NCBI RefSeq assembly: GCF_030812675.1
Contig: NZ_JAUSTE010000003.1
Coordinates: forward strand, 186,001-250,000
Origin: Sinomonas atrocyanea
Lineage (GTDB): Bacteria; Actinomycetota; Actinomycetes; Actinomycetales; Micrococcaceae
DNA: 64,000 nt
Direction: 5' to 3'
Below, in pieces: positions 2,049 to 47,468 of the stretch (its first letter is position 1; each line of letters opens with the position of its first letter). The notes under the pieces are model-generated. The model did not search any database. It worked only from the letters and a program-made list of their open reading frames with translations, and was not told the origin of the DNA. Made by a program: the position numbers and the translations under genes.

Positions 2049-2049
2049 G

Positions 2050-3773: not shown

Positions 3774-3791
3774 CCCGAGGAGGACACCCCT

Positions 3792-4989: not shown

Positions 4990-5050
4990 GCGGCGGACCC
5001 GAGTAGGCGGGCGGCACCGAGTAGGCAGCGGACCCGAGTAGGCGGGCGGC
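4981..5050. repeat. Two-unit 35-bp tandem duplication over the hxlB stop
   Basis: Units 4981-5015 and 5016-5050 differ at one base. Each holds two internal copies of the CCGAGTAGGC core. The first unit contains the final Thr-Glu-stop of hxlB, so the duplication added a second copy of the gene end between convergent hxlB and padR. Confidence 0.9.
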
Positions 5051-5059
5051 CGCGCCGGA

Positions 5060-5680
5060 TCAGGCGCCGGTGGCGCGTGTGCCGGCCCACCCGCCGTCGG
5101 CCGCCTCGAGACCCTCGACGAGCTCGAGGCCGCGGCGCGCCCAGGCGATCTCCGACCGTGCGCGGTCCACGAGGCCCTCGTAGGTGAAGCGCTTGAAGGC
5201 CACGGTCCGCTCGCGCGCCCCGGGCTCGGTCACCGCGAGCCTGCGGGCCAGCATCGGGTTCGCGACGGCGTCGATGCGGCGGAGCTCGCCCTCCCACTGC
5301 GCCAGCTCGCCCTCCCACTGCGTGATGTGCGCGCGGAAGAACTCGCGGGCCGCCGCCGGCGTGGCCGCCTCGAGGTAGGCGGCGCGCAGGTGGGCGGGGT
5401 CGCGGACCCGCGCGTACTCGAGCGGGGTGCCCATCCAGTCGAGGAAGGCCCGCTCCCCCGCCGGGGTGACGTGGTAGACCCGGCGCGTGGCGCGCTGGCC
5501 TCTGGCCTGCTCCTCGCCCTCAATGAGGCCCTCGGCCTCCATCTTGCGCAGCTCGGGGTAGATCTGGGAGTCGGGGGCGTGCCACACGTGCCCCACCGAG
5601 AGGGAGAACTGCTTCTGCAGGTCGTAGCCCGAGAGCGGGCCGACCCGGAGCAGGGCGAGCAGCGCGAACCTCAGGCTCAT
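5060..5680 (-). CDS. PadR-family transcriptional regulator
   Basis: An N-terminal PadR winged helix (LLRVGPLSGYDLQKQF, then a YPELRKMEAEGLI wing) is followed by a Vir/PadR C-terminal dimerisation helix region, about 206 residues in all. I chose ATG 5680 because AAGGAGGT lies 4 bp upstream; a GTG 18 bp earlier (5698) is in frame but has no such site. PadR proteins often control phenolic-acid and aromatic detoxification genes. It lies 60 bp after the ligM/purU/metF operon on the same strand and may be its last gene or its regulator. Confidence 0.85.
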   Translation of the reverse strand: MSLRFALLALLRVGPLSGYDLQKQFSLSVGHVWHAPDSQIYPELRKMEAEGLIEGEEQARGQRATRRVYHVTPAGERAFLDWMGTPLEYARVRDPAHLRAAYLEAATPAAAREFFRAHITQWEGELAQWEGELRRIDAVANPMLARRLAVTEPGARERTVAFKRFTYEGLVDRARSEIAWARRGLELVEGLEAADGGWAGTRATGA

Positions 5681-5740
5681 CGGACCTCCTTGAGACACGG
5701 ACTCGGCACGGGGCGGTGTGCCCCGTGCCGAGTTCCCAAC

Positions 5741-7192
<1,452 letters not shown>

Positions 7193-8065
7193 TCAGAAGA
7201 CGATGGTCTGGTTGCCGTGCCGGATCACGCGGTCCTCGGCGTGCCACTGCACGGCGCGGGAGAGCACGGCGCGCTCCACGTAGGCGCCGCGGGCCTGGAG
7301 GTCGGCGGCGGTGTGGGCGTGCGTGGCGCGGGCCACGTCCTGCTCGATGATGGGTCCCTCGTCGAGGTCCTTGGTCACGTAGTGGGCGGTCGCGCCGATG
7401 AGCTTCACGCCGCGCTCCTTGGCCTTGCGGTAGGGCGCGGCCCCGATGAACGCCGGCAGGAACGAGTGGTGGATGTTGATCAGCGGGACCCTGACCCGGT
7501 CGAGGAAGTCCGCGGAGATGATCTGCATGTAGCGGGCGAGGACCACGAAGTCGACGTTGCCCGCCAGGAGCTTGAGGATCTCATCCTCGGCGCCGGACTT
7601 GTCCGGGCCGGCGGAGGGGACGTGGAAGAACGGGATGCCGAACGAGCGCACGTCCTCCGCGGTGTTGGTGTGGTTGGAGATCACCATCGGGATGGTCACG
7701 GGCAGTTCGCCCCGCCGGTGCCGCCACAGCAGTTCGAGGAGGCAGTGGTCCGAGGTCGAGGCCATGATGGCCATCCGCTTGGGCACGGACAGGTCCGTGA
7801 GCGTCCACTGCATGTCCAGCGGGCCGAGGGTCGCGGCAAGGTCCGCCTCCAGATCCGGCATCGCGAGCGCGAGGTCGGGCCGGATGAACTCGACCCGCTG
7901 GAAGAAGTCCCCGCCCGTGGGGTCGGTGGAGTACTGGTCGAGCGTGACGATGTTGCCCTGGTTGCGGGTCACGAGCGCCGCGACGGCCGCCACGATGCCA
8001 GCCTTGTCGGGCCCGTGCACGATCAGGCAGGCGCGGTCCTTCCGGGCTTCGGTGTGCAGTGCCAT
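7193..8065 (-). CDS. purU: Formyltetrahydrofolate deformylase
   Basis: A 290-residue protein with an N-terminal ACT domain (about 1-85, GPDKAGIVAAVAALV) and a C-terminal formyltransferase fold containing NIHHSFLPAFIGAAPY and DLDEGPIIEQD (the catalytic His and Asp regions). It hydrolyses 10-formyl-THF to THF and formate, regenerating free THF. Placed 6 bp after metF and 39 bp before ligM, it completes a one-carbon disposal line for demethylation. The bifunctional FolD needed between MetF and PurU is not in this window. Confidence 0.93.
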   Translation of the reverse strand: MALHTEARKDRACLIVHGPDKAGIVAAVAALVTRNQGNIVTLDQYSTDPTGGDFFQRVEFIRPDLALAMPDLEADLAATLGPLDMQWTLTDLSVPKRMAIMASTSDHCLLELLWRHRRGELPVTIPMVISNHTNTAEDVRSFGIPFFHVPSAGPDKSGAEDEILKLLAGNVDFVVLARYMQIISADFLDRVRVPLINIHHSFLPAFIGAAPYRKAKERGVKLIGATAHYVTKDLDEGPIIEQDVARATHAHTAADLQARGAYVERAVLSRAVQWHAEDRVIRHGNQTIVF

Positions 8066-8071
8066 GGCGGC

Positions 8072-8959
8072 CTAGGACCGTTCGGCGGTGAAGGTGCGCA
8101 CCCAGTCGGCGGTCGCCTTGAGGCCGCCGAACGTGTAGAAGTGCAGGCCGACCTTGCCGGGGATCCCCGGGTGCGGCCACGCGTCCGTGAGGGCGGAGGC
8201 GAGGTCGTCGACGAAGTGCTCCGGCCCGGCCTCGCCGAGCAGGTTCGTGAGGGAGAAGCCGTACTTCTTCACGATCATGGCGTTGGCGCCCACGCCGAAA
8301 CGCCGCGCGAAGCCCAGGAGTCGCTTGATCCCGGCCGGGCCCGGGGTGCCCACGCGGATGGGGGCCTCGATGCCCTTGGCGCGCACGCCCGCGATCCATT
8401 CGGCCACCGGCTCGGTGTCGAAGGCGAACTGGGTGAGGATGACGGCGCCGAGCCCCTGGTCCTTCAAGGCCGCGGCCTTGTCCTCGAGGGCCCGGGCGAG
8501 GGTCTCCTTCGAGATGTCGGGGTGGCCCTCGGGATAGCCGCCGATGCCGACCTCGCGCACGCCGTACTGCTGGAGCACGCCGCTGGAGATGACGGCGAGC
8601 GAGTCCTCGTAGGGGCCCTCCGGGACGGACGGGTCGCCGCCCACGGTGAACACGTGCTCGCTCGCGCCCACCTCCTGGAGGCGGCCGAGGAACTCCTCGA
8701 GCTCGCCCTGGGACTTGAGCCGGCGCGCGGAGATGTGCGGGACGGGCGTGAACCCGTGCTCGCGGACGGCCTTCGCCGCGGCCACCCGCATCTCGAGGTC
8801 CTCGTTGCCGAGGAAGGTGATGTTGATCCGCGTGCCGGCCGGGATGTGGTCCTTGGCCTCGAGCAGGCCCGGCACGTCCTTGCCGGTCATCTCGAGCGAG
8901 AAGTTGTCGATCAGCTGCAGCGATGCTTCGCGGTTCGCCGCGGGTGCGCTCTTTGCCAC
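8072..8959 (-). CDS. metF: Methylenetetrahydrofolate reductase
   Basis: A 295-residue flavin TIM barrel typical of MetF, with NFSLEMTGKDVPGLLEAKD at the N-terminus, VGGDPS in the middle and a central ILTQFAFD strand. In biosynthesis it makes 5-methyl-THF. In demethylation operons, as with SYK-6 ligM/metF, it oxidises 5-methyl-THF back to methylene-THF. First gene of metF-purU-ligM, directly behind a good promoter at 9005-9033. A second, methionine-dedicated MetF elsewhere in the genome would support a catabolic role. Confidence 0.9.
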   Translation of the reverse strand: MAKSAPAANREASLQLIDNFSLEMTGKDVPGLLEAKDHIPAGTRINITFLGNEDLEMRVAAAKAVREHGFTPVPHISARRLKSQGELEEFLGRLQEVGASEHVFTVGGDPSVPEGPYEDSLAVISSGVLQQYGVREVGIGGYPEGHPDISKETLARALEDKAAALKDQGLGAVILTQFAFDTEPVAEWIAGVRAKGIEAPIRVGTPGPAGIKRLLGFARRFGVGANAMIVKKYGFSLTNLLGEAGPEHFVDDLASALTDAWPHPGIPGKVGLHFYTFGGLKATADWVRTFTAERS

Positions 8960-9004
8960 GTTCGGGACTCCTTTCGCACGGGCGCCACGTTGCGTCCTGT
9001 GTTG

Positions 9005-9033
9005 AATCTAACTATCTACATAGGGAATGTCCA
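9005..9033 (-). promoter_or_regulatory. Promoter of the metF-purU-ligM operon with embedded palindrome
   Basis: On the minus strand a -35 TGGACA (9028-9033) and -10 TAGATT (9005-9010) are separated by exactly 17 bp. The spacer contains CTATCTACATAG (9012-9023), an inverted repeat CTAT-N4-ATAG that could be an operator. The rest of the gap up to the aldehyde dehydrogenase stop holds no gene. Confidence 0.6.
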
Positions 9034-9172
9034 TAGGTATTGCGGTCAGAGTTCTGCGCGCTGCCACGACGTGCCGCGGTGCGGCCGGTGAAGAACCCCC
9101 GGGGCGGGCGGAGGCGAGGAGGAGGGCCAGGCGCGGGCGCCGCGCCGCGGTCGGCGCCTGCGCCCGCTCCCC

Positions 9173-9202
9173 CATTGTCCTGGCCGGCATTGTCCTGGCC
9201 GG
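9173..9202. repeat. 15-bp tandem repeat, two exact copies
   Basis: CATTGTCCTGGCCGG occurs at 9173-9187 and again at 9188-9202, just downstream of the aldehyde dehydrogenase stop on the minus strand. No function is evident. Confidence 0.85.
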
Positions 9203-9208
9203 GTACAG

Positions 9209-10711
9209 CTACCCGGCCGCGAGGGCGTCCGGGTCGAGGTGGGCCACCGAGCGGGTGTCCTGGAGGGCGCGCACACCCTCGATCCCCTGCTCCCGGCCCA
9301 GCCCGGACTGCTTCATGCCGCCGAACGGCGCGCGCAGGTCGAGCCGGGTGGCGCCGTGGTCGTTGACCCACACGTATCCGCACACGAGCTGGCGGGCGAT
9401 CCGGTCCGCGTGCGCGGGGTCCGCGGACCAGACGGAGCCGCACAGCCCGGCCCACGTGTCGTTCGCGGCCCGGACGGCCTCCTCCTCGGTGTCGAACGGG
9501 AGGATCGGGATGACCGGGCCGAACTGCTCGTGCGTGACCACGCGCAGCGCCGGGTCCGGGTCGACCACGAGCGCGGGGCGCAGGAAGTTGCCGCCGGACA
9601 GCTCGGGGTCGGCGGGCAGCGTGCCGAACTCTCGCACGTCGGCGCCGGAGGCCTTGGCCTCCTCGATGAGCTCGGCCACGAACGCCTTCTGCACGGGCGA
9701 GTGCAGCGGGCCCATGGTGGTGCCCTCGTCGAGGCCGTAGCCGATCACGGCCTTCTCGAGCCGGGCGGCGAGGCCTGCGACCACGTCGTCGAGCCGGGAG
9801 CGGTGCACGTAGACGCGCTTGGCGTTCATGCAGATCTGGCCGGTGGTGTCGAAGATGGCCGCGTAGAGGCGGTCCAGCTCGGCGTCGTCGAGGGTCGCGT
9901 CCTCGAGGATCACGGCCGGGTCGTTGCCGCCGAGCTCGAGCGTGACCCTGGTGAGGGATCCCGAGGCCATCTCCATGATCTTCTTGCCGCCCGCGACGGA
10001 TCCGGTGAAGCAGACCTTGGCGATGTCCGGGCTCGTGATGAGCGCGGACATGTCCGCGTCCTTGCCGGTGACCACGTTGAGCACGCCGGGCGGGAGCTTC
10101 TCGGCGATGCGCTGGACCACGCGGGTGGTGGCGAGCGGGGTGGTGGGCGGCGGCTTGACGATCGCGGTGTTGCCGGCCAGGAGCGCGTGCGGCAGCGAGG
10201 CGCCCAGGATCGCGATGGGCCAGTTGAACGGCACGATCACGGTGACCACGCCGAGAGGCTGGTACGCGACCGTCGTCGTCACCGGGATGCCCGGCGCGGG
10301 CGCCAGGACGGTCGCGGCGTCGACCTGGTCGGCGAGCGCGAGGGCGAGGTTCCAGCGGATCTCGAAGACGAGGGAGTCGACCCATGCCTCGAGGCGGATC
10401 TTGCCGTTCTCCTGGGACAGGATCGCGGCGTCCTCGTCCCGCGCCTCCGCGATGCCCTCGATCGCGGACCTCATCCGCTCGGCCCGTTCGGCCGCACCGA
10501 GCGCGCTCCAGGCCGGGTAGGCAGCCTTGGCGGCGGCGATCGCGTCGTCGACGTCGGCCGCGCTCGCCGCGGCCGCGTGGCCGACGACGGTCCCGGGCTT
10601 GCCGGGGTCAGCCACCTCGAGCGTCGCGGCGGCCCGGCGTTCGGCGCCGCCGATGTACAGGCCCGTGGTGACGGGCGCCGCGGGGGCCGCGGGGTCCAGT
10701 GTCTCGGTCAT
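9209..10711 (-). CDS. NAD(P)-dependent aldehyde dehydrogenase
   Basis: About 500 residues in the classical ALDH fold: the PFNWP oxyanion/cofactor motif, the catalytic-base region LELGGNDPAVIL and the nucleophile Cys in TTGQICMNAKRV. ATG 10711 is preferred because AAGGAG sits 10 bp upstream; an in-frame GTG at 10720 is too close to that site. It is the last gene of the minus-strand operon with the LigM-like protein, the PrpF-like isomerase and the extradiol dioxygenase. It may oxidise a ring-cleavage semialdehyde or an aromatic aldehyde such as vanillin. The substrate is inferred only from neighbours. Confidence 0.82.
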   Translation of the reverse strand: MTETLDPAAPAAPVTTGLYIGGAERRAAATLEVADPGKPGTVVGHAAAASAADVDDAIAAAKAAYPAWSALGAAERAERMRSAIEGIAEARDEDAAILSQENGKIRLEAWVDSLVFEIRWNLALALADQVDAATVLAPAPGIPVTTTVAYQPLGVVTVIVPFNWPIAILGASLPHALLAGNTAIVKPPPTTPLATTRVVQRIAEKLPPGVLNVVTGKDADMSALITSPDIAKVCFTGSVAGGKKIMEMASGSLTRVTLELGGNDPAVILEDATLDDAELDRLYAAIFDTTGQICMNAKRVYVHRSRLDDVVAGLAARLEKAVIGYGLDEGTTMGPLHSPVQKAFVAELIEEAKASGADVREFGTLPADPELSGGNFLRPALVVDPDPALRVVTHEQFGPVIPILPFDTEEEAVRAANDTWAGLCGSVWSADPAHADRIARQLVCGYVWVNDHGATRLDLRAPFGGMKQSGLGREQGIEGVRALQDTRSVAHLDPDALAAG

Positions 10712-10760
10712 GGTCTCCACACTCCTTCGTGCGGTGTTGTGGGTGGGTACCTCTAGGGTG

Positions 10761-11714
10761 TCACTGCCGCACGGCTGGCGTGCCGTGCGTGTGGAAGGTC
10801 TCGATGGTCTTCATGCCCCAGGCCTGGCCCTTCTTCCGCTCCTCCTGGCTCCACTCGACCACGGGCGAGTCGGGGTCGAGCAGGAGGCGGGCGCCCGCGT
10901 TGGCGAACTCGATGCGGTTCCCGCCCGGCTCCCAGACGTAGAGGAAGAAGGTCTGGTTGATGGCGTGCTTGTGCGGGCCGGACTCGATGTGGATGCCGTT
11001 CTCGAGGAAGATGTCTGCGGCCTTGAGGATGTCCTCGCGGGTGTCCGGGGCGAAGGCGACGTGGTGGAGGCGGTTGCCGTGCTTGAGCCAGTCGTCGGAG
11101 TAGACGATGTCGTAGGACTTGTTGTTGAAGTGGAACCACCAGGCCGCGTAGCCGCCGTCGTCGAGCTTGATGCGCTCGGACTCGCGCCCGCGCAGGGCCC
11201 TGGCGACGAACTCGCCGTTGGCCACGACGTCCTTGGCGAGGTAGTTGATGTGGTCGAGCCGGCGGGCGTTGACGCCGCGGCCGGGGAAGCGGGAGGCCTG
11301 GTTCTTCAGTGCCGGCCTGTCGTCCGTGGCCTCGTACCGCTCGGTGTCGTAGTAGATCCCCATCTCGTGCCCGTCGGGGTCGCGGAAGGTGAACGTCCGG
11401 CCGGTGCCGACCTCGCCGTCCTCCCAGCCGATGCCCAGGCCCATCTCCTCGATGGCCCGCACGCGCCGGTCGAGGGCCTCGGCGCTCGTGGTGCGGAAGG
11501 TGGTGCGGCCCACGCCGGCGTCGTCCGAGGCGGTGAGCTTGATCGTGTAGAGCTGGTACTCGTCCCACGTGCGCAGGTACACGGAGTCCCCGGCCTCGGC
11601 GACGACCCGCATGGCGAGCAGGTCCTGGAAGAACCACAGGCTCTTCTCGAAGGTCGGGGTGAGGAGCTCGACGTTGCCCAGGTGGGCCACGTCGAACGAG
11701 GTGTAGTCGGTCAT
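10761..11714 (-). CDS. Type I extradiol (catechol 2,3-dioxygenase-like) ring-cleavage enzyme
   Basis: 317 residues, two vicinal-oxygen-chelate domains. The iron site is intact: His155 (RLDHINYLA), His217/218 (NRLHHVAFAPD) and Glu269 (GGNRIEFAN). The family opens catechols next to the diol with O2 and Fe(II). It lies 36 bp after the PrpF-like gene, with the aldehyde dehydrogenase downstream. The expected substrate is a catechol made by the LigM-type demethylase, perhaps protocatechuate- or gallate-like. Type I enzymes are not the usual partners of LigM, which feeds LigAB-type enzymes, so this combination is notable. Confidence 0.85.
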   Translation of the reverse strand: MTDYTSFDVAHLGNVELLTPTFEKSLWFFQDLLAMRVVAEAGDSVYLRTWDEYQLYTIKLTASDDAGVGRTTFRTTSAEALDRRVRAIEEMGLGIGWEDGEVGTGRTFTFRDPDGHEMGIYYDTERYEATDDRPALKNQASRFPGRGVNARRLDHINYLAKDVVANGEFVARALRGRESERIKLDDGGYAAWWFHFNNKSYDIVYSDDWLKHGNRLHHVAFAPDTREDILKAADIFLENGIHIESGPHKHAINQTFFLYVWEPGGNRIEFANAGARLLLDPDSPVVEWSQEERKKGQAWGMKTIETFHTHGTPAVRQ

Positions 11715-11750
11715 TGCTGTCCTCTTTCGTGCTGCGGGCGCGTGGGGCTG

Positions 11751-12881
11751 CTACAGGCGGGGGCGCGGGAAGACGCGCCCGTCGAAGATCTTCCGGGCGG
11801 TGCGCAGGGCTGCGGAGCGGACGACGGCGAGCCCTCCGGGGGCGCCCCCCTCGCCGGCGGTGCCGCTCCCCGCAGTCGCGGCCGGTGCGAGGGCCACGTC
11901 GACGTCGAAGTGCCCGGTGGGGTGCTCGATCCGGAACGGGGCGCCCTCCTCGGGCAGGGCCGCGAGGGCGTGGCCCACCGAGCCGGGCGCGAGCACGCCG
12001 GCCGCGGCGGTGAGGGCGCCGAGCACGCCGATCGAGGTATGGACGCGCACGGGCAGGAAGCTGCGGGTGGCGACCGCTCCCCCGGCGCGCGGGGCGGAGA
12101 GCAGGACGAGCTTGGGGACCGTCGTGCCGCTCACGTCCCCCATGCCCATGAGCTCGGCCGCGGCGGCCCTGATCTTCGCGATCCTGGCGGCGAGGTCGGC
12201 GTCGGCCTCGAGGTCGGCCGGCGCCTCGTCGCCGCGCACGCCGAGGTCGGCGGCGCGGATCAGGACGCTGGGCATGCCGTTGTCCACGCACGTCACCTCG
12301 ACCCCCTCGACCGTGTCGAGGACGCTGCCGGTCGGGAACAGGGCCCCGGTCGAGGAGCCCGCGGTGTCCTCGAAGTCGAGCGAGATCGCCCCCGCGGTGC
12401 CGGGCACGCCGTCGATCGCGAGGTCGCCGTCGTAGTCCACCGCGCCGCCAGGGGTGGCGAAGCGGGCGGTGGCGACGCTGTCGCTGTTGACCATGCGGAT
12501 CCGCACCTCCGTGCGCTCGGGCCCCGCGGGGACGAGGCCGCGCTCCACGGCGAAGGGGCCGACCCCGGCCAGGAGGTTGCCGCAGTTCTGCCGGTCCGTC
12601 ACGAAGGCCTCGTCGACGCCGAGCTGGAGGAAGAGGTAGTCGACGTCGGCCGATCCGCTGCCGCCGCCTCCGCGATCGGGCGAGGCGGAGACGACGGCGA
12701 CCTTGCTCGTGAGCGGGTGGGCGCCGCCGAGGCCGTCGATCTGGCGCGGGTCGGGCGTGCCCATGATGCGCAGGAGGAGCTCGTCGCGGGCGGCGGGGTC
12801 CGCGGGCAGGTCTGAGGCGAGGAAGTACGCGCCCTTGGAGGTGCCCCCGCGCATCAGGAGGCAGGGGATCCCATCAGGCAT
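11751..12881 (-). CDS. PrpF-family isomerase (4-oxalomesaconate tautomerase-like)
   Basis: 376 residues from ATG 12881, whose first 8 bp overlap the end of the upstream LigM-like gene. The diagnostic N-terminus RGGTSKGAYF (11-20) and the CGN motif at Cys100 (RQNCGNLLAG) mark the PrpF/GalD branch of the diaminopimelate-epimerase fold. Relatives isomerise aconitates or tautomerise 4-oxalomesaconate after gallate or protocatechuate meta-cleavage. Its position between a demethylase and an extradiol dioxygenase fits processing of a tricarboxylic or keto-enol ring-cleavage product. The exact substrate is not known. Confidence 0.82.
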   Translation of the reverse strand: MPDGIPCLLMRGGTSKGAYFLASDLPADPAARDELLLRIMGTPDPRQIDGLGGAHPLTSKVAVVSASPDRGGGGSGSADVDYLFLQLGVDEAFVTDRQNCGNLLAGVGPFAVERGLVPAGPERTEVRIRMVNSDSVATARFATPGGAVDYDGDLAIDGVPGTAGAISLDFEDTAGSSTGALFPTGSVLDTVEGVEVTCVDNGMPSVLIRAADLGVRGDEAPADLEADADLAARIAKIRAAAAELMGMGDVSGTTVPKLVLLSAPRAGGAVATRSFLPVRVHTSIGVLGALTAAAGVLAPGSVGHALAALPEEGAPFRIEHPTGHFDVDVALAPAATAGSGTAGEGGAPGGLAVVRSAALRTARKIFDGRVFPRPRL

Positions 12882-14280
12882 TGGCACGGTACACGGTCCT
12901 GGCGAACTCGTGGTACGGGGCCGGGGCCACCGTGGCGCGGATGCGGACCTGGCGGTGGTCGGCGTCGACCGAGGCCTTGCGGGAGATGGGGTCCTCGCCC
13001 CAGACGACCTCGACCTCGGCGCCGTCGGGGACGTCGGCGTCCAGCGTCGCCAGGGACATGTAGAGCTGGTCGTAGGCGACGTAGCCTGCGTCGGTGGAGA
13101 TGCCCGCGCGGCGGCCGGCGTGGATGACCTCGTCCATCTGGAACAGCCCGTAGCGGGCCTTGGGGAAGTCGAGGTACTTGGCCGGGGTGCCGGGCTCAAG
13201 CTGGGAGCGCACCACGGCGGCGACGTCCTCGGCGTCCCAGATGAGCGTGACCTTGCGGCGGCGCTGGTTCTCGGCGTGCCGTTCGAGGGCCTCGCGGCCG
13301 TGGAAGTCGTGGTCGAACCGCACGGACCGGCCCAGCCCGATGTCGTAGGGGGTCATGTAGTAGTCGTGCACGTCCTCGGAGTAGAGGGAGCCGCCGATCG
13401 ACCCGGCGCGGGCGGCGGGGAGCCAGGCGCGGTACTCGGCGAGGTCGTCGTCGAAGATGGCCGGGAAGGGGGTGGGCACCCAGCCGGACTCCAGGGGGGA
13501 GGCCGAGTAGGCCTTGGCGCCGACGCGGCGGATGCCGAACTCCTCGCCCGCCTCCATGAGGGCGGCCAGCACCGTCTCGTGGTCCTCCCAGGGGCCGTAG
13601 AACTCGAAGCCCGGCTGGCCGGCCATCCCGTGGCGGAGGGCCTTGACCGGGCGGCCGGCGATCTGGACGTCGCCGATATGGAAGAACTTGATCTCCGGGA
13701 TGGGTCCGGCGAAGACCTTCTCCATGACCTCGTTGGCGCGCGGGCCCTGCAGCTCGTACCGGTAGAACGTGGGCGGGCCCTGGCGCATGTGGGAGTTGGC
13801 CTCGAGGCGGTGGTGCACGTCCTGGCCGGCGGCCGCGGCCTTCTCGACGTTGAAGCGGACCCAGTCGATGAGCAGGTGGTGGCCGATCAGCACGAGCCCC
13901 TCGGGGGCGTCCTCGTGGTAGAAGAGGATGCCGTCGCCGATGAGGTACCCGTCCTGGTTGACCGCGATGAGCTGCTTGGCCACCCCGGGGCGGAAGGTGC
14001 CGAAGGTGTTGGGCGAGATCGAGGACAGCAGCGGGATGAGGTCCGAGCCGCCGAGGAAGAGCTGGGTCATGTGGTGCGACTGGTCCATGAGGGCCACGGT
14101 CGTGTTCCACGCCCGCTGCTCGTCGCGCCAGTTCGTGAATTCGGGCGCCACCGGGAACGTGAACGCGGGCCAGTCCTGGTTGCGCAGCAGCTCGACAGGG
14201 CCGCCCGCTCGGGCGATCGCCTCCGCCAGGGACTCGGTGGCGGCCCGTTGCCCGGTGCCTGCCAGTGATTCTGCGGTCAT
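12874..14280 (-). CDS. LigM/DesA-type THF-dependent demethylase, divergent copy 2
   Basis: 468 residues from ATG 14280 (AAGGG upstream). It keeps the family landmarks DQSHHM, GDGILFYHED, KALRHGMAGQPGFE and AKAYSASPLESGWVPTP, with the conserved tyrosine at 258. It is clearly less similar to copies 1 and 3 than they are to each other; for example it begins RNQDWPAFTFPV instead of RNSQ-G-YIYPV. It leads an operon with the PrpF-like isomerase, extradiol dioxygenase and aldehyde dehydrogenase, so it probably demethylates that pathway's own methoxy compound, possibly a syringate- or 3-O-methylgallate-like one. Confidence 0.82.
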   Translation of the reverse strand: MTAESLAGTGQRAATESLAEAIARAGGPVELLRNQDWPAFTFPVAPEFTNWRDEQRAWNTTVALMDQSHHMTQLFLGGSDLIPLLSSISPNTFGTFRPGVAKQLIAVNQDGYLIGDGILFYHEDAPEGLVLIGHHLLIDWVRFNVEKAAAAGQDVHHRLEANSHMRQGPPTFYRYELQGPRANEVMEKVFAGPIPEIKFFHIGDVQIAGRPVKALRHGMAGQPGFEFYGPWEDHETVLAALMEAGEEFGIRRVGAKAYSASPLESGWVPTPFPAIFDDDLAEYRAWLPAARAGSIGGSLYSEDVHDYYMTPYDIGLGRSVRFDHDFHGREALERHAENQRRRKVTLIWDAEDVAAVVRSQLEPGTPAKYLDFPKARYGLFQMDEVIHAGRRAGISTDAGYVAYDQLYMSLATLDADVPDGAEVEVVWGEDPISRKASVDADHRQVRIRATVAPAPYHEFARTVYRANA

Positions 14281-14364
14281 CGTCGACCCTTCCCTTCGCG
14301 CGTGTCGGCCGGGCCCCGACGAGGGCCCCGGAGGGGGTGTCCTGCCAGACAACCACGGGCCTAG

Positions 14365-15882
<1,518 letters not shown>

Positions 15883-15889
15883 GCCCTAC

Positions 15890-15919
15890 GCCGGCAGGGC
15901 CGCTCCGGGCCCTGCCGGC
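15890..15919. terminator. Bidirectional hairpin between ligM copy 3 and gntR
   Basis: A perfect 12-bp stem (15890-15901 with 15908-15919) and a 6-nt loop, just after the demethylase stop and before the convergent gntR stop. No T-tract follows, as is common in high-GC actinobacteria. Confidence 0.75.
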
Positions 15920-15929
15920 GCCCTCGGCG

Positions 15930-16637
15930 CTAGACGGCCTCGCGGGCCGTGACCTCCCGGAGGGCCTCGATGACGCTGAGCAGGTGGGCCCGGACGGCCC
16001 GCTCGGCGGCCTCCGGGTCGCGGGCGAGGATCGCGTCGATGATGGCGGTGTGCTCGAGCACGGAGACCTTGGCTCGGGCGGGGCGGGACGAGAGCCTGAA
16101 CTGGTGCCGCACGCTCTGGGCGTGCAGCCGGGCGAGCACGTCCGAGGCCGTGGCGTGGTGGCTGAGCTCGCGCACCCGGACATCGAGGGCCCTGTTCAGG
16201 CGGGAGTACTCGACGAGGTCGCCCTCCTCCACTGAGGCCGCCATGTCGTCCCTCAGCCGGGCGAACTCGGCCGCCTGCTCGTCGGTGAGGTGCTCGGCGA
16301 CCTTCGCGGCGCACAGGCCCTCGACGCCGATGCGCACCTCGAGGATCTCGATCGCCTCGTCCACCGAGATGGCCCGCACGCGCGAGCCCTTGTTGGGCAG
16401 GCGCTCCACGAGGCCCTCGCCCGCGAGCTCCAGCAGGGCGGTGCGCACGGTGGCGCGGCTGGCGGAGAAGGCGGCGCTCAGGTCCGCCTCGATGAGCCGC
16501 TGGTTGGGCGCGTACTCGCCGCGGACGATCGCGTCGCGGATCTGGTCGGTCACCGGTGCGTGGGCCCCACCCTCGGAGGGCGCGCCGCCCGCAGGCGACA
16601 CGGCCGCCGTCGCCTCGTTCACCGCTGCTGGCGCCAT
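15930..16637 (-). CDS. GntR-family (FCD/FadR type) transcriptional regulator
   Basis: 235 residues: an N-terminal winged HTH (about 28-93; IRDAIVRGEYAPNQRLIEADLSAAFSASRATVRTAL) and an all-helical FCD ligand domain with the metal-ligand helices expected of the family (about 100-225). ATG 16637 follows CAGGAAG. It is divergent from the DUF1932-type dehydrogenase and the liv operon. An ATTGT-N2-ACAAT palindrome in the shared gap, plus relatives at the liv and demethylase promoters, make it the likely local regulator of aromatic uptake and demethylation. The effector is unknown. Confidence 0.86.
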   Translation of the reverse strand: MAPAAVNEATAAVSPAGGAPSEGGAHAPVTDQIRDAIVRGEYAPNQRLIEADLSAAFSASRATVRTALLELAGEGLVERLPNKGSRVRAISVDEAIEILEVRIGVEGLCAAKVAEHLTDEQAAEFARLRDDMAASVEEGDLVEYSRLNRALDVRVRELSHHATASDVLARLHAQSVRHQFRLSSRPARAKVSVLEHTAIIDAILARDPEAAERAVRAHLLSVIEALREVTAREAV

Positions 16638-16686
16638 GGTCCGCTCGCTTCCTGGAGAGCCCTCGCGGCCCGGACGGAGCCGCGAT

Positions 16687-16698
16687 ATTGTCTACAAT
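16687..16698. promoter_or_regulatory. Putative GntR operator (gntR/dehydrogenase intergenic)
   Basis: ATTGTCTACAAT has 5-bp inverted arms around CT, placed midway between the divergent starts 16637 and 16725. FCD-type GntR proteins typically bind short palindromes of this kind. Confidence 0.6.
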
Positions 16699-16724
16699 CT
16701 TAGAACCAATCGCGGGAGGACCGC

Positions 16725-17516
16725 ATGCGCATCGCCGTCCTGGGCCTCGGTGAGGCCGGAACCATCTACGCGACGGACCTGGCCGCGCACGGGGCACACG
16801 TCGCCGCCGCGGATCCCCGCGCCGCCGCCGCCCCGCCCGGCGTCGTGCTCGTCCCCGGCACGGCCGAGGCCGTCACGGGCGCCGCCCTCGTGCTGAGCCT
16901 CGTCGGCGCCCGCGCGGCCTCCGCCGCCCTCGCCGAGGCGCTGCCCGCGATGGCGCGCAGCGCGGTCTTCGCCGACCTCAACACGGCGGCGCCCGAGGAG
17001 AAGCGCCGCCTCGCTCAGCAGGCGGCCGGGGCCGGGGTGCGCTTCGCCGACGTCGCCGTCCTCGCCCCGGTCCCCCGGGCGCGGATCGCCACGCCGCTGC
17101 TCGTCAGCGGCCCCGGCGAGGCCGCACTCACCGCCCAGCTCGCCGAACTGGGCATCCCGGCCACGTCGGCCGGCCCGGAGCCCGGCGCCGCCGCCGGCCT
17201 CAAGCTCCTGCGCAGCGTGTTCATGAAGGGGCTCGCCGCCACCATCCTCGAGGCGGTGACGGCGGCGAGCGCCGTCGGGGCCGCCGGCTGGGTCACCGAC
17301 CAGATCGCCGCCGAGCTGGGCCCGGACGGGGCGGCCCTGGTCCAGCGGCTGCTCGAGGGCACGCGCCGGCACGCCGTGCGGCGCGAGGAGGAGATGCTCG
17401 AGGTGCGCTCCTACCTCGATGCCCTGGGCTCCGCGCACCCCATGACGGACGCGACCATCGAGTGGCTCCGCACGGTGTCCGCGGCGGCACCTCCATCCGG
17501 CATCCAAAATCGTTGA
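16725..17516 (+). CDS. NAD(P)-binding dehydrogenase, 6-phosphogluconate/3-hydroxyisobutyrate type with DUF1932-like C-terminus
   Basis: 263 residues beginning with a Rossmann glycine motif GLGEAG (7-12), then FADLNTAAPEEKR and a helical C-terminal domain with GLKLLRSVFMKGLAATILEA, the substrate-lysine region of beta-hydroxyacid dehydrogenases. GGGAGGA precedes ATG 16725. It probably oxidises or reduces a hydroxy acid. It is divergent from gntR and sits 90 bp before the liv transporter operon, so it may act on the imported compound. The substrate is not identifiable from sequence. Confidence 0.72.
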   Translation: MRIAVLGLGEAGTIYATDLAAHGAHVAAADPRAAAAPPGVVLVPGTAEAVTGAALVLSLVGARAASAALAEALPAMARSAVFADLNTAAPEEKRRLAQQAAGAGVRFADVAVLAPVPRARIATPLLVSGPGEAALTAQLAELGIPATSAGPEPGAAAGLKLLRSVFMKGLAATILEAVTAASAVGAAGWVTDQIAAELGPDGAALVQRLLEGTRRHAVRREEEMLEVRSYLDALGSAHPMTDATIEWLRTVSAAAPPSGIQNR

Positions 17517-17541
17517 CAATCTCGTCTCCGATCCGTAGCTT
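17509..17541 (+). promoter_or_regulatory. Promoter and GntR-like operator of the liv operon
   Basis: A consensus -35 TTGACA (17513-17518), a 17-bp spacer and -10 TAGCTT (17536-17541). The -35 lies inside ATCGTTGACAAT (17509-17520), the reverse of an ATTGTCAACGAT box resembling the gntR sites. Repression by blocking the -35 is suggested. Confidence 0.6.
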
Positions 17542-17606
17542 CAATGCCAAGCGGCTGTGATCCGTTCCACAGGCCGCGGGCAAAGACGCACAACGGAGGT
17601 ACGCCG

Positions 17607-18389
17607 ATGGCAGCACGCCTGAGCCTGAGCGACGTGAACCTGCACTTCGGCGGCGTCAAGGTGCTCCAGGACGTGAGCTTCGAGGTCGAGCCCGGCACGA
17701 TCTTCGGACTCGTCGGCCCCAACGGGGCGGGGAAGACCTCGCTCTTCAACTGCATCAGCGGCCACTACCGGCCGAGCTCCGGCTCGATCACGATCGACGG
17801 CACCGAGGCCGTGGGGCGCGCGCCCTCGCACCTGGCCCGGATCGGCCTCTCCCGCACGTTCCAGCACCCTGCACTCCAGCTGCGGGCCACCGTCCTGGAG
17901 AACGTGGTCCTCGGCGGCCACACCCGCCTGCCGGGCGGGCCGCTCTCCTGGGCCCTCGGACTGCCGTTCACCGGCCGGGCCGAGCGGGCCATGCGCACCG
18001 AGGCGCTCGGGCTCCTCGACCGCGCGGGCCTCGCGTGGGCGGCGGACCGGCCCGCGGACGAGCTCTCGCACGGGCTCCACAAGGGCATCGAGCTGTGGCG
18101 GGCCCTCCTGGCCCGGCCGTCGCTGCTCCTGCTCGACGAGCCGGCGGCCGGCCTCTCCCACGGCGAGGTCGAGCAGCTCATCGCCACCGTGAAGCAGGTG
18201 CGCGACCAGCAGGACATCACGATCGTGATCGTCGAGCACCACATGGGCCTCATCTCCGCCCTCACGGACCGCGTGGTGGTGCTGGACCACGGCCGCAAGC
18301 TCATGGAGGGCACCGCGGCCGAGGCCCAGGCCGATCCGCGGATCATCGAGGCCTACATCGGGAAGGACGCGGCCGATGACGCTGCTTGA
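17607..18389 (+). CDS. livG: Branched-chain-type ABC transporter ATPase LivG
   Basis: 260 residues from ATG 17607 (GGAGG 8 bp upstream). Walker A is GPNGAGKT (37-44) and Walker B LLLLDEPAAGL. The ABC signature is unusual: ELSHGLHKGIEL replaces the usual LSGGQ-like or LivG LPYGQQ-type sequence. LivG pairs with LivF on the cytoplasmic face to power the LivHM permease. In this context the cargo is more likely an aromatic or organic acid than an amino acid, as HAAT-family importers are often recruited for these. It overlaps livF by 14 bp. Confidence 0.85.
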   Translation: MAARLSLSDVNLHFGGVKVLQDVSFEVEPGTIFGLVGPNGAGKTSLFNCISGHYRPSSGSITIDGTEAVGRAPSHLARIGLSRTFQHPALQLRATVLENVVLGGHTRLPGGPLSWALGLPFTGRAERAMRTEALGLLDRAGLAWAADRPADELSHGLHKGIELWRALLARPSLLLLDEPAAGLSHGEVEQLIATVKQVRDQQDITIVIVEHHMGLISALTDRVVVLDHGRKLMEGTAAEAQADPRIIEAYIGKDAADDAA

Positions 18390-19086
18390 ACTCGACGGCG
18401 TCACTGCCTCCTACGGACCCGTCCAGGTGCTCGAGGGCGTCTCGCTCACGGTGCCGGAGGGCGGCGCCGTCGGCGTTCTCGGGGCGAACGGCGCGGGCAA
18501 GACCACCACCCTGCGTGCCATCAGCGGCACCGTCCGCACCGGCGGGACCATCCGGTTCGCCGGCCGGGACATCCGCGGGCTGCGTCCCGACCAGGTCGCC
18601 GGGCTCGGGATCGCGCACGTGCCCGAGGGCCGCGGCACGCTCGCCCAGCTCAGCGTGCGCGAGAACCTCGCCGTGGGCGCCTACCTGCGCAAGGACCGCA
18701 GGCAGATCGAGAAGGACATCGACTACTGCCTCGAGCTGTTCCCGAACCTCCGGAACAGGATCGGCTCGCGGGCCGCGGCGCTCTCCGGCGGCGAGCAGCA
18801 GATGCTCGCCGTGGGCCGGGCGTTCATGGCCAAGCCCAAGCTCCTCCTGCTCGACGAGGCCTCCCTGGGCCTCGCGCCCAGCACGGCGAAGACGGTCTAC
18901 GACGCCATCCGCCGGCTCCGCGTCGAATCGGGCATCGCGATGCTCGTGGTCGAGCAGAACGCCAACCTCGCGTTCTCCCTCGTCGACACCGCCACGGTGC
19001 TCGAGACGGGGCGGACCGTGCTGACAGGGACCTCCTCCGAGCTCAAGGGCATGGACGAGATCCGCCGCGCCTACCTGGGGGGCTGA
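18376..19086 (+). CDS. livF: Branched-chain-type ABC transporter ATPase LivF
   Basis: 236 residues with a complete ATPase set: Walker A GANGAGKTT, signature LSGGEQQMLAVGRAFM and Walker B LLLLDEASLGLAP. It is the second ATPase of the HAAT importer. Start 18376 overlaps livG, and livH follows 5 bp later, so the operon is tightly coupled. Its signature is canonical, in contrast to LivG, so the two ATP sites of the heterodimer may be asymmetric. Confidence 0.9.
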   Translation: MTLLELDGVTASYGPVQVLEGVSLTVPEGGAVGVLGANGAGKTTTLRAISGTVRTGGTIRFAGRDIRGLRPDQVAGLGIAHVPEGRGTLAQLSVRENLAVGAYLRKDRRQIEKDIDYCLELFPNLRNRIGSRAAALSGGEQQMLAVGRAFMAKPKLLLLDEASLGLAPSTAKTVYDAIRRLRVESGIAMLVVEQNANLAFSLVDTATVLETGRTVLTGTSSELKGMDEIRRAYLGG

Positions 19087-19091
19087 ACCCG

Positions 19092-19973
19092 ATGGAGACC
19101 TTCATCCAGCTCGTGGTCGACGGCCTCTCGACCGGCTCGATCTACGCGGCCCTCGCCCTCGCGATCGTGCTCGTGAACCAGGCGACGGGCCTGATCAACT
19201 TCGCCCAGGGCGGCCTCGCCGTCCTCTCCGCCTATTTCGCGTATGCGTTCGTGCAGGCGGGGCTGCCGCTCCTGGCCGCGGTGCTCCTGGCGATCGTCCT
19301 CTCGTTCTGCCTCGGCGCGCTCGTCGAGCGGTTCCTCATGCGCCGGTTCGAGCGCGGCGACCCGGACACGGCAGTCGTCGTCACGATCGGCCTGCTTACC
19401 CTCGTCACGGGCATCGTCGCGGTCCTGTGGGGCTACAACAACCTGCAGTTCCCCTCCCTGTTCCCCCTCACGAGCGTCAACGTCCTCGGCGCGGTGGTCA
19501 GCGTCCGCTCCCTCGCCACCACGGTGACGATCGTGGCGATCATGGTCCTGCTGCAGGTGCTGTTCATGCGCACCAAGCTCGGGCTCGCGCTGCGGGCCGT
19601 GGCGGACAACCCCGCCTCCTCCGCCCTCTCCGGCCTCCCGGTGGGGCGGCTGCTGATGGTCGGCTGGGGACTCGCGGCCGCGCTCGGTGCCATGGCCGGA
19701 GCCCTCGTCGGCCCGCAGCTGACGCTCACCCCCGGGATGCTCGACGGCGCCCTCGTCTACGCGCTCGCCGCGGTGATCCTGGGCGGCCTGGACAGCCCGA
19801 TCGGGGCCGTGGCCGCCGCCTGGGGCATCGGGGTGCTCGAGAACCTCGTCGCCGTCTACGTCCCGCTGATCGGGCACGACCTCAAGATCGCCGTCCCGTT
19901 CGCGCTGATCTTCGTCATCCTGGTCCTCCGTCCCCAAGGCCTGTTCGGCAGGAAGGTCGTGGTGCGGGTCTGA
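19092..19973 (+). CDS. livH: Branched-chain-type ABC permease LivH
   Basis: 293 residues with about 8 hydrophobic helices. The N-terminus GLSTGSIYAALALAIVLV and the LINFAQGGLAVLSAYFAY segment are typical of LivH. The central EAA-like loop ALRAVADNPASSALSGLPVGRL contacts the ATPases. It forms the membrane pore with LivM, which starts inside its stop codon (TGATG, 19971-19975). Confidence 0.9.
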   Translation: METFIQLVVDGLSTGSIYAALALAIVLVNQATGLINFAQGGLAVLSAYFAYAFVQAGLPLLAAVLLAIVLSFCLGALVERFLMRRFERGDPDTAVVVTIGLLTLVTGIVAVLWGYNNLQFPSLFPLTSVNVLGAVVSVRSLATTVTIVAIMVLLQVLFMRTKLGLALRAVADNPASSALSGLPVGRLLMVGWGLAAALGAMAGALVGPQLTLTPGMLDGALVYALAAVILGGLDSPIGAVAAAWGIGVLENLVAVYVPLIGHDLKIAVPFALIFVILVLRPQGLFGRKVVVRV

Positions 19974-21091
19974 TGGGCGCAGCACTGAAGTCCCGGGGGG
20001 CCCGGATCGGCATCGCCGTCCTGGTCGCCATCCTCCTCCTCGCGGCCCCGCTCTTCCTGCCCGCGATCGCCAACCAGAGCCTCGTGCGCATCGGGGTATA
20101 CGCCGTGGCCGTGCTCGGGCTGAACATCGTCATGGGCTACACCGGCCAGGTCAACCTCGGGCAGATCTTCTTCCTGGGGCTGGGCGCCTACGTCACCGCC
20201 TACGGCGTCACCCACGGCTGGAACATCGTCCTCGTGTTCGTCGCGGCCGCCGTCATCACCGGGATCGTGGGGCTGCTCGTGGCCCTCGCCGCCGCGCGCC
20301 TCGGCGGCCTCGCGATCGCGATGGTCACGATCGCCCTGCCGATCGTGGGCGTCCCGCTGGCCAAGCGGCTCGACACGTTCACCGGCGGATCCCAGGGCAC
20401 CTCGGCGATCTTCTCGAACGCCCCGGACTGGTCCGGCCTGTTCAACGACCAGTGGCAGTACTACATCGTCCTGGTCGTGGCCGGCGTCGGATTCCTCCTG
20501 GCCCGGCGGCTCGTGCGCGGTAAGTACGGGCGCGCGTTCGCCGTGGTGAAGGGCAACGAGTCGGTGGCGGCCTCGATGGGCGTCTCGCCGTACTGGACCA
20601 AGGTCCTCGCCTTCACCATCGCCTCCGTGTTCGGCGGCGCGAGCGGCTTCCTCTACATGGCGGCCGTCCAGTACACCTCCCCCGAGACGCTCAGCTTCGG
20701 CCACTCCATCAGCCTGCTCGCGGCCATGGTGATCGGCGGGGCCGGCAGCATCGTCGGCTCCCTGATCGGCGGGGCGTACTACATCCTCGTGCCGCAGCTG
20801 ACCAACGCCATCGACCCCAACCTGACCACCATCAGCCAGGGCGTGATCCTCCTCGCGGTGCTGTTCCTCCTGCCCGACGGGCTCGTGAGCCTGCCCCGCG
20901 TCCTCAGGCGGCTCGGCCGCCGCGGCACCGCATCGCGCGCGGGCGGCGCCGCCCCGCCGGCGGGCACCGCCGCCGACAAGCACCACTCCAGCGCTGCGGG
21001 GACTCCCCCGCAGAACACTCCCGCGCAGGTTCCGACCCCGGACGCGGCGCCGGAGGCACCCGAGAAAACAGAGAGGCACGGTCGATCATGA
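19973..21091 (+). CDS. livM: Branched-chain-type ABC permease LivM
   Basis: 372 residues from ATG 19973, overlapping the livH stop. A multi-helix permease with the LivM hallmarks GYTGQVNLGQIFFLGLGAY and the EAA-like stretch KGNESVAASMGVSPYWTKVLAF. An extended, low-complexity Ala/Pro/Thr-rich C-terminal tail of about 60 residues follows the last helix; such tails are common in actinobacterial versions. Its stop overlaps the start of the binding-protein gene (ATGA). The in-frame open sequence upstream of 19973 is a shadow of livH. Confidence 0.88.
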   Translation: MGAALKSRGARIGIAVLVAILLLAAPLFLPAIANQSLVRIGVYAVAVLGLNIVMGYTGQVNLGQIFFLGLGAYVTAYGVTHGWNIVLVFVAAAVITGIVGLLVALAAARLGGLAIAMVTIALPIVGVPLAKRLDTFTGGSQGTSAIFSNAPDWSGLFNDQWQYYIVLVVAGVGFLLARRLVRGKYGRAFAVVKGNESVAASMGVSPYWTKVLAFTIASVFGGASGFLYMAAVQYTSPETLSFGHSISLLAAMVIGGAGSIVGSLIGGAYYILVPQLTNAIDPNLTTISQGVILLAVLFLLPDGLVSLPRVLRRLGRRGTASRAGGAAPPAGTAADKHHSSAAGTPPQNTPAQVPTPDAAPEAPEKTERHGRS

Positions 21092-22344
21092 ACGTTCGGA
21101 AAGGGACACGGGGGCTCCTCGGCGCCGTCGCGATGGCGTCGGTCCTTGCGCTCTCGCTGACAGGATGCCGCGGCAGCGCGCAGAGCGGCAGCGGGGGCAC
21201 GGCGGCATCGCCCGGCATCACGGACACGAGCATCACGCTCGGCATCACCACCCCCCTCAGCGGCGCGACCGCTGGCCCCGGCACCTGCACCGTCGCAGGC
21301 GTCAAGGCCTACTTCGGCGCCAAGAACGCCGAGGGCGGGGTGAAGTTCGGCGACGGCAAGACCCGCAAGGTGGACATCAAGACCTACGACGACGCCTACG
21401 ACCCGCAGAAGTCGCTCTCCAACTTCCAGCAGATGGTCTCGGACAACGTCTTCGCCGAGGGCGTGGGCCTGGGGACGCCGACCAACCGCGCGTTCCGCGA
21501 GGCCGCCATCAGCCAGAAGGTGCCCCAGGTCCTCGTCATGACGGGCGATCCGACCTTCAGCGACCAGAAGCAGAGCCCGTGGCAGCTCGGCCTCGTGCCG
21601 GCCTACCAGAACGAGGGTGGGGCCTTCGGCAAGCTGCTGGCCTCCTCCGGAGGGACGCACAAGGTCGCGATCCTGTCCCAGAACGACGACTACGGCAAGG
21701 GCTACGTCTCCGGCTTCAAGGACGCGATCAAGGGCGCCTCGAACATCAGCGTGGTCGGCGAGCAGACCTACGAGGCCACCGACACGTCGGTGGACGCACA
21801 GATCACCCAGTTGGCCGCGACCGGCGCGGACGTGTTCTTCAACGCCATGTCCATCACCCCGCTGACGATCGCAACCCTGCAGAAGGCCCAGCAGATCGGC
21901 TGGAAGCCCAGCTGGTTCCTGCCCTCGAACACCTCGAGCCCCACGGCCATCCTGCAGCCGGGCGGGGCCTCGGCCTACCCTGGCATCTACTCGGTGGCCT
22001 TCTCCAAGGCCCCGCAGAGCCCGGAGTTCGCCAAGGACCAGGACGTGGTCAAGTTCCTCTCCGACCTCAAGCAGTACGCGAACTACCAGGGCATGCCGGC
22101 GTTCCCCCACTGCATGTGGAGCTACATCGCCGGAGCCACGCTCGACCAGGCGTTCCAGAAGATGACCGATCCCACGCGCGACTCCTTCATGAAGGCCCTG
22201 CGCAGCATCAAGGGCTTCAACGCCCCGCTCATGCTCCAGGGCACGAGCGTGGACACCACCATGGACGGCCAGCCGGCCATCTCCTCCGTGCTCGTCCAGA
22301 AGTACAACGGCAAGGGCTACGCCACGGCCCAGAAGTTCGGCTGA
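21088..22344 (+). CDS. livK: ABC transporter substrate-binding lipoprotein (LivK/HAAT family)
   Basis: 418 residues. A lipoprotein signal with lipobox LTGC (Cys27) anchors it outside the membrane. The mature part is a type I periplasmic-binding fold (GITTPLSGATAGPGTC, then NDDYGKGYVSGFKDAI and TYEATDTSVDAQITQL). It captures the ligand for LivHMGF. An aromatic carboxylate ligand is plausible from the gntR/demethylase neighbourhood; branched-chain amino acids cannot be excluded. It ends the operon. Confidence 0.87.
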   Translation: MNVRKGTRGLLGAVAMASVLALSLTGCRGSAQSGSGGTAASPGITDTSITLGITTPLSGATAGPGTCTVAGVKAYFGAKNAEGGVKFGDGKTRKVDIKTYDDAYDPQKSLSNFQQMVSDNVFAEGVGLGTPTNRAFREAAISQKVPQVLVMTGDPTFSDQKQSPWQLGLVPAYQNEGGAFGKLLASSGGTHKVAILSQNDDYGKGYVSGFKDAIKGASNISVVGEQTYEATDTSVDAQITQLAATGADVFFNAMSITPLTIATLQKAQQIGWKPSWFLPSNTSSPTAILQPGGASAYPGIYSVAFSKAPQSPEFAKDQDVVKFLSDLKQYANYQGMPAFPHCMWSYIAGATLDQAFQKMTDPTRDSFMKALRSIKGFNAPLMLQGTSVDTTMDGQPAISSVLVQKYNGKGYATAQKFG

Positions 22345-46480: not shown

Positions 46481-46540
46481 CAACTCGGGTGGGGGCCGGC
46501 GGCGCTGCTGGTCCCCACCCCTCGCGAAGGAGCTGGAATA

Positions 46541-46552
46541 CTAGCATTATGG
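46541..46552. promoter_or_regulatory. Partial operator at the gntR start (CTAGCATTATGG)
   Basis: A half site CTAGCAT immediately before, and overlapping, ATG 46549 of the GntR gene. It could allow autoregulation. Confidence 0.4.
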
Positions 46553-47450: not shown

Positions 47451-47468
47451 TCACTCATCCCCGGCCTC

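Follow-up and report, generated by a model that had tools for sequence, protein, structure and literature searches.

A gene island in the 64,000-nucleotide window of Sinomonas atrocyanea analysed here (contig NZ_JAUSTE010000003.1) probably encodes a GntR-regulated route from methoxylated benzoates to gallate, in which the ring would be opened by a VOC-family enzyme acting as a type I gallate dioxygenase. As judged from sequence, this enzyme most likely takes the place of the LigB-type dioxygenases GalA and DesB. All gallate dioxygenases known to us are LigB-type, and a literature search brought up none of type I, although subscription papers and preprints lay outside its scope and one may already be published. 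The initial annotation had read positions 9209-22344 as an undescribed methoxyaromatic pathway unlike the standard gallate pathway. Every gene that it named there, from the aldehyde dehydrogenase to LivGFHMK, was recovered in place, and methoxyaromatic catabolism is supported, but the pathway departs from the gallate route mainly in a single step. What remains is the gallate route through 4-oxalomesaconate (OMA) with the LigB-type dioxygenase exchanged for the VOC enzyme, and with LigJ, LigK and LigI encoded on another contig (C20) under the same operator. The cluster is also larger than had been described, with LigM2 lying inside that interval and LigM1, PurU and MetF just outside it.

The substrate assignment draws chiefly on the company that the VOC gene keeps in relatives. 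A search with a four-sequence alignment gave 580 related stretches, of which the best 80 were searched with marker proteins (E 1e-8, half coverage); in 60 of these 80 loci each flank was 4.9 kb long or more. No further than 5 kb from the VOC gene we found a tautomerase in 62 loci, LigK in 66, a GalB-type hydratase in 52 and LigJ in 8, so that 69 of the 80 hold at least one OMA-pathway gene at this distance, whereas LigM is found in 27 and LigA or LigB markers in none. Tautomerase, LigK and hydratase occur together in 54 loci, and in 28 of them LigM, DesA-like, LigI, LigAB and aldehyde dehydrogenase genes (at least 45% identity for the last) are all absent from the surrounding 5 kb. With a full OMA set and none of these accessory enzymes, the VOC enzyme must deliver OMA alone in such loci. 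Gallate is the known substrate that yields OMA in one cleavage step, and one-step delivery therefore points to gallate.

Searches of 24 VOC-bearing genomes, 18 of which belong to those 28 loci, placed no protein above the cut-off (412) of the LigB-type gallate dioxygenase model, with weaker matches of 22 to 108 bits (best 107.9) in 16 of them; a LigI relative at E 1e-40 was present in three and absent from 21. The gene order GalB-VOC-LigK-tautomerase recurs on plasmids of Agrobacterium, two Thioclava and Rhizobium SL42, and Nonomuraea has the order GalB-LigK-tautomerase-VOC. On pAt of Agrobacterium tumefaciens the VOC gene is accompanied by GalB, LigK, tautomerase and a tannase, and tannase relatives (41-42%) lie in three further loci.

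The genome of the window (4.12 Mb in 32 contigs, 100% complete by estimate) encodes what such a route would need downstream. The isomerase is of the PrpF/GalD type, as first annotated, and passes the cut-off for OMA tautomerase (NF033377, 475.9 against 440 bits), with LigU (6p3j, 377.9 bits) as its best solved relative. The ligJ, ligK and ligI genes sit together on C20, where LigK exceeds its cut-off (383.4 against 304.5 bits) and its neighbours match the solved LigJ/OMA hydratase (463 bits) and LigI (378 bits); the lower pathway, defined as LigJ, LigK and LigI, is thus present. No LigAB-type dioxygenase was found in this genome, whose two PF02900 matches are MhpB and a DOPA-dioxygenase-like LigB-family protein that scores under its cut-off; at the sensitivity used, the genome has neither a gallate nor a protocatechuate dioxygenase of LigB type. 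Protocatechuate 3,4-dioxygenase beta and alpha (pcaH, pcaG) and catechol 1,2-dioxygenase are all above their cut-offs. Since protocatechuate has a route of its own and LigB matches are few, the VOC gene is the candidate for feeding OMA. The LigB-type gene at 50287-51234 was considered as a competing ring-opening enzyme and ruled out, because it is MhpB (475 bits, above cut-off) in a 3-(2,3-dihydroxyphenyl)propionate-type cluster. That cluster (46477-55844) has its own GntR and further comprises a flavin hydroxylase, a hydrolase, a hydratase, an acetaldehyde dehydrogenase, a 4-hydroxy-2-oxovalerate aldolase and a thiamine pyrophosphate (TPP) enzyme.

The dioxygenase itself was rightly called VOC-type rather than LigAB-type. 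Its sole Pfam match is Glyoxalase (PF00903, E 0.001), it lacks the LigB domain (PF02900) of GalA and DesB, its structural model predicts a type I extradiol fold, and the type I metal ligands are present as H155, H218 and E269, aligned to residues 155, 214 and 267 of homoprotocatechuate 2,3-dioxygenase (HPCD). Identity is 34% to each of the catechol 2,3-dioxygenases 3lm4 and AphC (7q2a), and about 26% to HPCD. It differs from all three by a conserved C-terminal block, ERxKGQAWG..FHTHGTP, and by Tyr201, which aligns with the catalytic His200 of HPCD. Tyrosine occupies this position in all 90 members of the clade; the 13 sequences compared from outside it have histidine (11), isoleucine (1) or leucine (1) there. 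According to PMC3962378, extradiol dioxygenases all carry a catalytic base next to the axial hydroxyl; set against that statement, the Tyr clade would be a test of the role of the histidine. The closest VOC proteins (92-93% identical) come from Sinomonas cellulolyticus and Sinomonas sp. ASV486, and the clade extends across Actinomycetota and Pseudomonadota, its members being automatically annotated as catechol 2,3-dioxygenase or VOC family protein. The closest solved relative by sequence, PDB 9wgj (357.5 bits; not in the fold library), is likewise Tyr-type and carries the unconfirmed deposition label catechol 1,2-dioxygenase.

The units of the island are further tied together by a common operator. 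ATTGT boxes shared across units had been noted before, and they prove to be real and beyond chance: when up to one mismatch is allowed, ATTGTNNACAAT occurs in the window at 14391, 16687 and 17509, three sites against 0.10 expected and a number reached in 0 of 100 shuffles, and each box stands at the 5' side of one transcription unit. The palindrome ATTGTnnACAAT is found at five places across the 4.12 Mb genome, four of them at promoters of this pathway, the fourth lying 58 bases ahead of where the ligJ match begins. The fifth, on contig C8, falls within an open reading frame and was set aside as having no connection with the pathway. Among the relatives, 67 of the 80 loci hold at least one box (125 in total; five simulated sets gave 3 to 7), and in 53 of 78 loci, two being too short, the first VOC-operon gene located has a box no more than 400 bases upstream of it. 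Boxes precede GalB or LigK in gallate-only species and DesA-like, LigM, LivG, GntR or LigJ genes elsewhere. The family identities and the regulon are well supported, and we infer that the GntR/FCD regulator binds the boxes.

Three O-demethylases of the LigM/DesA (GCV_T) type are encoded in the island. LigM1 (882.4 bits) and LigM2 (896.3 bits) exceed the cut-off of 580 of the NCBI LigM model NF047885 and cluster with LigM of Sphingobium SYK-6 (5x1i) in a tree that contained neither SYK-6 DesA nor SesA. The operon demethylase is called DesA-like only, because it falls under the cut-offs of both NF047633 (DesA, 483.5 against 800) and NF047885 (447.2 against 580); in the tree it forms a clade of its own, whose sister is another DesA-like group with a Rhodococcus opacus member. 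Next to LigM1, PurU and a divergent MetF would recycle the one-carbon (C1) unit, the MetF-like protein scoring far under the NCBIfam MetF cut-offs. In Sinomonas ASV486 the gene order is DesA-like-MetF-PurU-VOC, and in both this genome and a second relative (G010) the VOC gene comes after PurU.

We propose the following course for the pathway, whose substrates and activities are inferred throughout. Syringate, 3-O-methylgallate and vanillate would be the methoxylated benzoic acids handled by the island under GntR control, with the HAAT system importing a precursor. The DesA-like enzyme would take one methyl group from syringate to give 3-O-methylgallate, and LigM1 and LigM2 would remove the second to give gallate; they may also convert vanillate to protocatechuate, for which the genome has pcaHG. 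MetF and PurU would turn methyl-tetrahydrofolate into tetrahydrofolate and formate. The VOC dioxygenase would convert gallate directly to OMA, from which the LigU-like isomerase, followed by LigJ and LigK, would lead to pyruvate and oxaloacetate. LigI could rescue pyrone dicarboxylate if the VOC dioxygenase also accepts 3-O-methylgallate, and the aldehyde dehydrogenase would most likely supply syringate or vanillate from syringaldehyde or vanillin.

Perhaps the most serious competitor is a VOC enzyme that cleaves mainly 3-O-methylgallate, to CHMOD (a methoxy ester) or to pyrone dicarboxylate that LigI then converts to OMA, with gallate as a side substrate. LigI shares the regulon with ligJ and ligK and yet no LigAB was found in the genome, so pyrone dicarboxylate needs another source; direct opening of 3-O-methylgallate by Pseudomonas NGC7 is described in PMC12314914, and the VOC gene of Sinomonas ASV486 follows the demethylase and C1 genes. 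We nevertheless consider this rather unlikely, given that the 21 VOC-bearing genomes mentioned above have no LigI at E 1e-40, that demethylase genes are missing from the 5 kb around the VOC gene in the 28 loci, and that the operon offers no candidate CHMOD esterase. Type I protocatechuate 4,5-dioxygenase activity of the VOC enzyme also seems unlikely; in that case the product, 4-carboxy-2-hydroxymuconate semialdehyde, would be oxidised to OMA by the aldehyde dehydrogenase before the tautomerase acts, bypassing LigC and LigI. Such a scheme gives the aldehyde dehydrogenase a place in the operon order, fits the annotation of its closest solved relatives as hydroxymuconic semialdehyde dehydrogenase (4go4, 268 bits), and could draw on protocatechuate made from vanillate by LigM. 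As a main role it was rejected, because the 28 loci with a full OMA set have neither such a dehydrogenase nor LigI or LigAB nearby, because the genome has pcaHG for protocatechuate, and because the dehydrogenase tracks the demethylases: its homologues (at least 45% identity) occur in seven of the 80 loci, six with a LigM or DesA-like gene and the seventh on a 3 kb contig, and in none of the 51 loci that lack such genes. This co-occurrence speaks for an aromatic aldehyde, for instance syringaldehyde, rather than an aldehyde from ring cleavage, and syringaldehyde or vanillin is the favoured substrate; among the 25 matches listed for the dehydrogenase, no NCBIfam equivalog cut-off was passed.

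An ordinary catechol or substituted-catechol 2,3-dioxygenase with incidental OMA neighbours is very improbable. The VOC protein scores 302.7 bits with the catechol 2,3-dioxygenase model TIGR03211, under the cut-off of 320.2 (which the Roseomonas and Nonomuraea VOC proteins reach with 354.9 and 320.2 bits), and has tyrosine in place of the catalytic histidine. OMA genes lie near 69 of its 80 relatives, while His-type relatives (two from Thermus, and those of Rhodococcus pyridinivorans, NAH7 and Variovorax) adjoin catechol-route genes, namely acetaldehyde dehydrogenase and dmpG, and the plain catechol dioxygenase was rejected on these three counts. We give least credence of all to an island that uses the DesA-like enzyme on some other methoxylated or methylenedioxy compound, such as a fragment of a lignan or alkaloid. 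SesA, a sesamin demethylenase of the same superfamily, was reported from Sinomonas sp. no. 22 (PMC5547118), but that paper separates SesA and BrdA from DesA and LigM, and the window enzyme groups with DesA and LigM by model score and by the tree, which does not contain SesA.

Several observations weigh against gallate cleavage by the VOC enzyme or against parts of the scheme around it. In 11 of the 80 loci, some of them on short contigs, the 5 kb around the VOC gene are free of OMA-pathway genes; two of these are from Sinomonas (L029, L030) and the others are L048, L051, L052, L056, L095, L097, L105, L106 and L107. In addition, Chimaeribacter (L142) has a Tyr-type gene without OMA-pathway neighbours. 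Arg243 and Arg293, the carboxylate-binding residues of HPCD, are not conserved in the VOC enzyme. Gallate cleavage leaves the aldehyde dehydrogenase unexplained, and with the DesA-like protein under both model cut-offs syringate as substrate is a guess. A control with the box pattern read backwards also gave three matches in the genome. In a profile of 15 genomes of one genus, the VOC protein (>90% identity) is present in five and the tautomerase (>90%) in three, with LigJ and LigI each in nine, all five VOC-bearing genomes included. One VOC-bearing relative (G009) has DesA-like, VOC and aldehyde dehydrogenase genes in a row without the tautomerase, only a 38% relative being found elsewhere, and G010 has no tautomerase at E 1e-40. 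Both hold LigAB as well as the VOC gene, and a Roseomonas VOC gene (L024) stands beside LigAB-type genes, so the VOC enzyme is not always the sole ring-opening candidate; this weakens the sole-enzyme argument for the two relatives, and not for the genome of the window. Around the window-type ligJKI of two genomes (G002, G003) there is no LigA or LigB marker in the 19 kb examined, whereas the ligJKI of G005, G009 and G010 is of another kind and has LigAB after it. The gene after LigAB in G010 was named Gfo/Idh-type by reading and has no family match.

The Roseomonas locus deserves a remark of its own: at 5046-7963, LigAB-type genes directly precede the Tyr-type VOC gene and an importer, so that two ring-opening enzymes are adjacent, and a ring-hydroxylating oxygenase and a GntR gene are also present.

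The proposed route displays individual features of several known systems. With the gallate pathway of Pseudomonas putida KT2440 (GalA, GalD, GalB, GalC; PMC12314914) it shares the conversion of gallate to OMA, the tautomerase, the hydratase and the aldolase, and it differs in its VOC-type rather than LigB-type dioxygenase, in LigJ as hydratase, in a GntR/FCD regulator in place of the LysR-type GalR, and in its link to tetrahydrofolate-dependent demethylases. The syringate/vanillate route of Sphingobium SYK-6 (DesA, LigM, DesB, LigU, LigJ, LigK, LigI) follows the same order of reactions, and Sinomonas has LigM together with LigU-, LigJ-, LigK- and LigI-like proteins. However, DesB is a type II enzyme (PMC3962378) and the Sinomonas enzyme type I, the Sinomonas DesA-like protein is under the DesA cut-off, the regulator is another one, and the importer is of the HAAT type. 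A cluster on plasmid pRop44186_a of Rhodococcus opacus has a DesA-like protein (54.9% identity), MetF, PurU, PIG-L and LigK in common, but contains a LigAB-type dioxygenase, an alpha/beta hydrolase and an isomerase, and rather resembles a 3-O-methylgallate route. Within it (4759-18953 of locus L027) lie Mur-ligase, pabB, folP and FolD-type genes, which might provide folate to the demethylases.

Table 1 Genes and putative operator boxes of the island (positions in the window).
Feature	Position	Strand	Basis
PadR-family regulator	5060..5698	-	Pfam PadR above cut-off; adjoins LigM1
LigM1, tetrahydrofolate-dependent vanillate/3-O-methylgallate O-demethylase	5741..7153	-	NCBIfam NF047885
PurU, formyltetrahydrofolate deformylase	7193..8065	-	TIGR00655, 342.7 bits (cut-off 285.95)
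MetF-like methylenetetrahydrofolate reductase, divergent	8072..8959	-	Pfam MTHFR, 28.6 bits (cut-off 24)
Aldehyde dehydrogenase, last gene of the operon	9209..10720	-	Pfam Aldedh, 421 bits
VOC (type I) extradiol dioxygenase, proposed gallate dioxygenase	10761..11714	-	Family models, neighbourhoods, residues
OMA tautomerase LigU/GalD, PrpF-type	11751..12881	-	NF033377; LigU 6p3j
DesA-like tetrahydrofolate-dependent O-demethylase, first gene of the operon	12874..14280	-	DesA/LigM model scores; tree
Putative operator box ATTGTCACCAAT	14391..14402		Between divergent DesA-like and LigM2 genes
LigM2, tetrahydrofolate-dependent vanillate/3-O-methylgallate O-demethylase	14467..15882	+	NF047885; tree
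GntR/FCD regulator, proposed reader of the boxes	15930..16637	-	Pfam GntR and FCD above cut-off
Putative operator box ATTGTCTACAAT	16687..16698		Between gntR and the beta-hydroxyacid dehydrogenase gene
NAD-binding beta-hydroxyacid dehydrogenase, DUF1932	16725..17516	+	Pfam NAD_binding_2 and DUF1932
Putative operator box ATCGTTGACAAT	17509..17520		Upstream of the importer genes
LivG, LivF, LivH, LivM, LivK, HAAT-type ABC importer	17544..22344	+	Family models

The remaining genes of the island are distributed unevenly among the relatives. Homologues of the DUF1932 beta-hydroxyacid dehydrogenase are found in 34 of the 80 loci, and in Thioclava, Rhizobium, Agrobacterium and Roseomonas they occur with gallate genes by annotation. 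LivK homologues occur in seven loci, all of them with a LigM homologue as well. LivK was left without an assigned ligand because its resemblance to solved binding proteins is weak (best E about 6e-11), and the HAAT importer probably takes up an aromatic acid. The PadR gene is kept beside LigM1 in four loci (L029, L057, L058, L072), and its product is a probable regulator of the LigM1/PurU/MetF unit.

Adjoining the island, positions 729-4989 (+) encode an MFS transporter, a fumarylacetoacetase-family hydrolase, a KDG-kinase-like PfkB, a 3-hexulose-6-phosphate synthase-like protein (157 bits, under the cut-off of 200) and a 6-phospho-3-hexuloisomerase (207.4 bits, above the cut-off of 160). This set stays beside LigM1 in Sinomonas cellulolyticus and could serve formaldehyde fixation or sugar acid use. 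Downstream of the importer, a mycothiol-dependent maleylpyruvate isomerase-type protein (24824-25588, -) lies beside a CoA ligase (23221-24714, -). Rfam gave no match at gathering score anywhere in the window.

Only slightly better than even, in our estimation, is the broader proposal that the whole VOC-fold Tyr clade represents a second, unrelated invention of gallate dioxygenase, with tyrosine in place of the catalytic histidine and perhaps with the third hydroxyl of gallate serving the proton transfers, that it is under GntR/FCD control through ATTGTnnACAAT in Actinomycetota, and that in Micrococcales it has been joined to tetrahydrofolate-dependent demethylases as a syringate pathway. Were this so, gallate, a hub of tannin and syringyl-lignin breakdown, would have a second, non-homologous ring-opening enzyme, one hidden until now by its annotation as catechol 2,3-dioxygenase, and substrate predictions would shift in many genomes. 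The enzyme would be a new one for lignin conversion, and the Tyr clade would provide a natural test of the part that the conserved catalytic histidine plays in extradiol dioxygenases.

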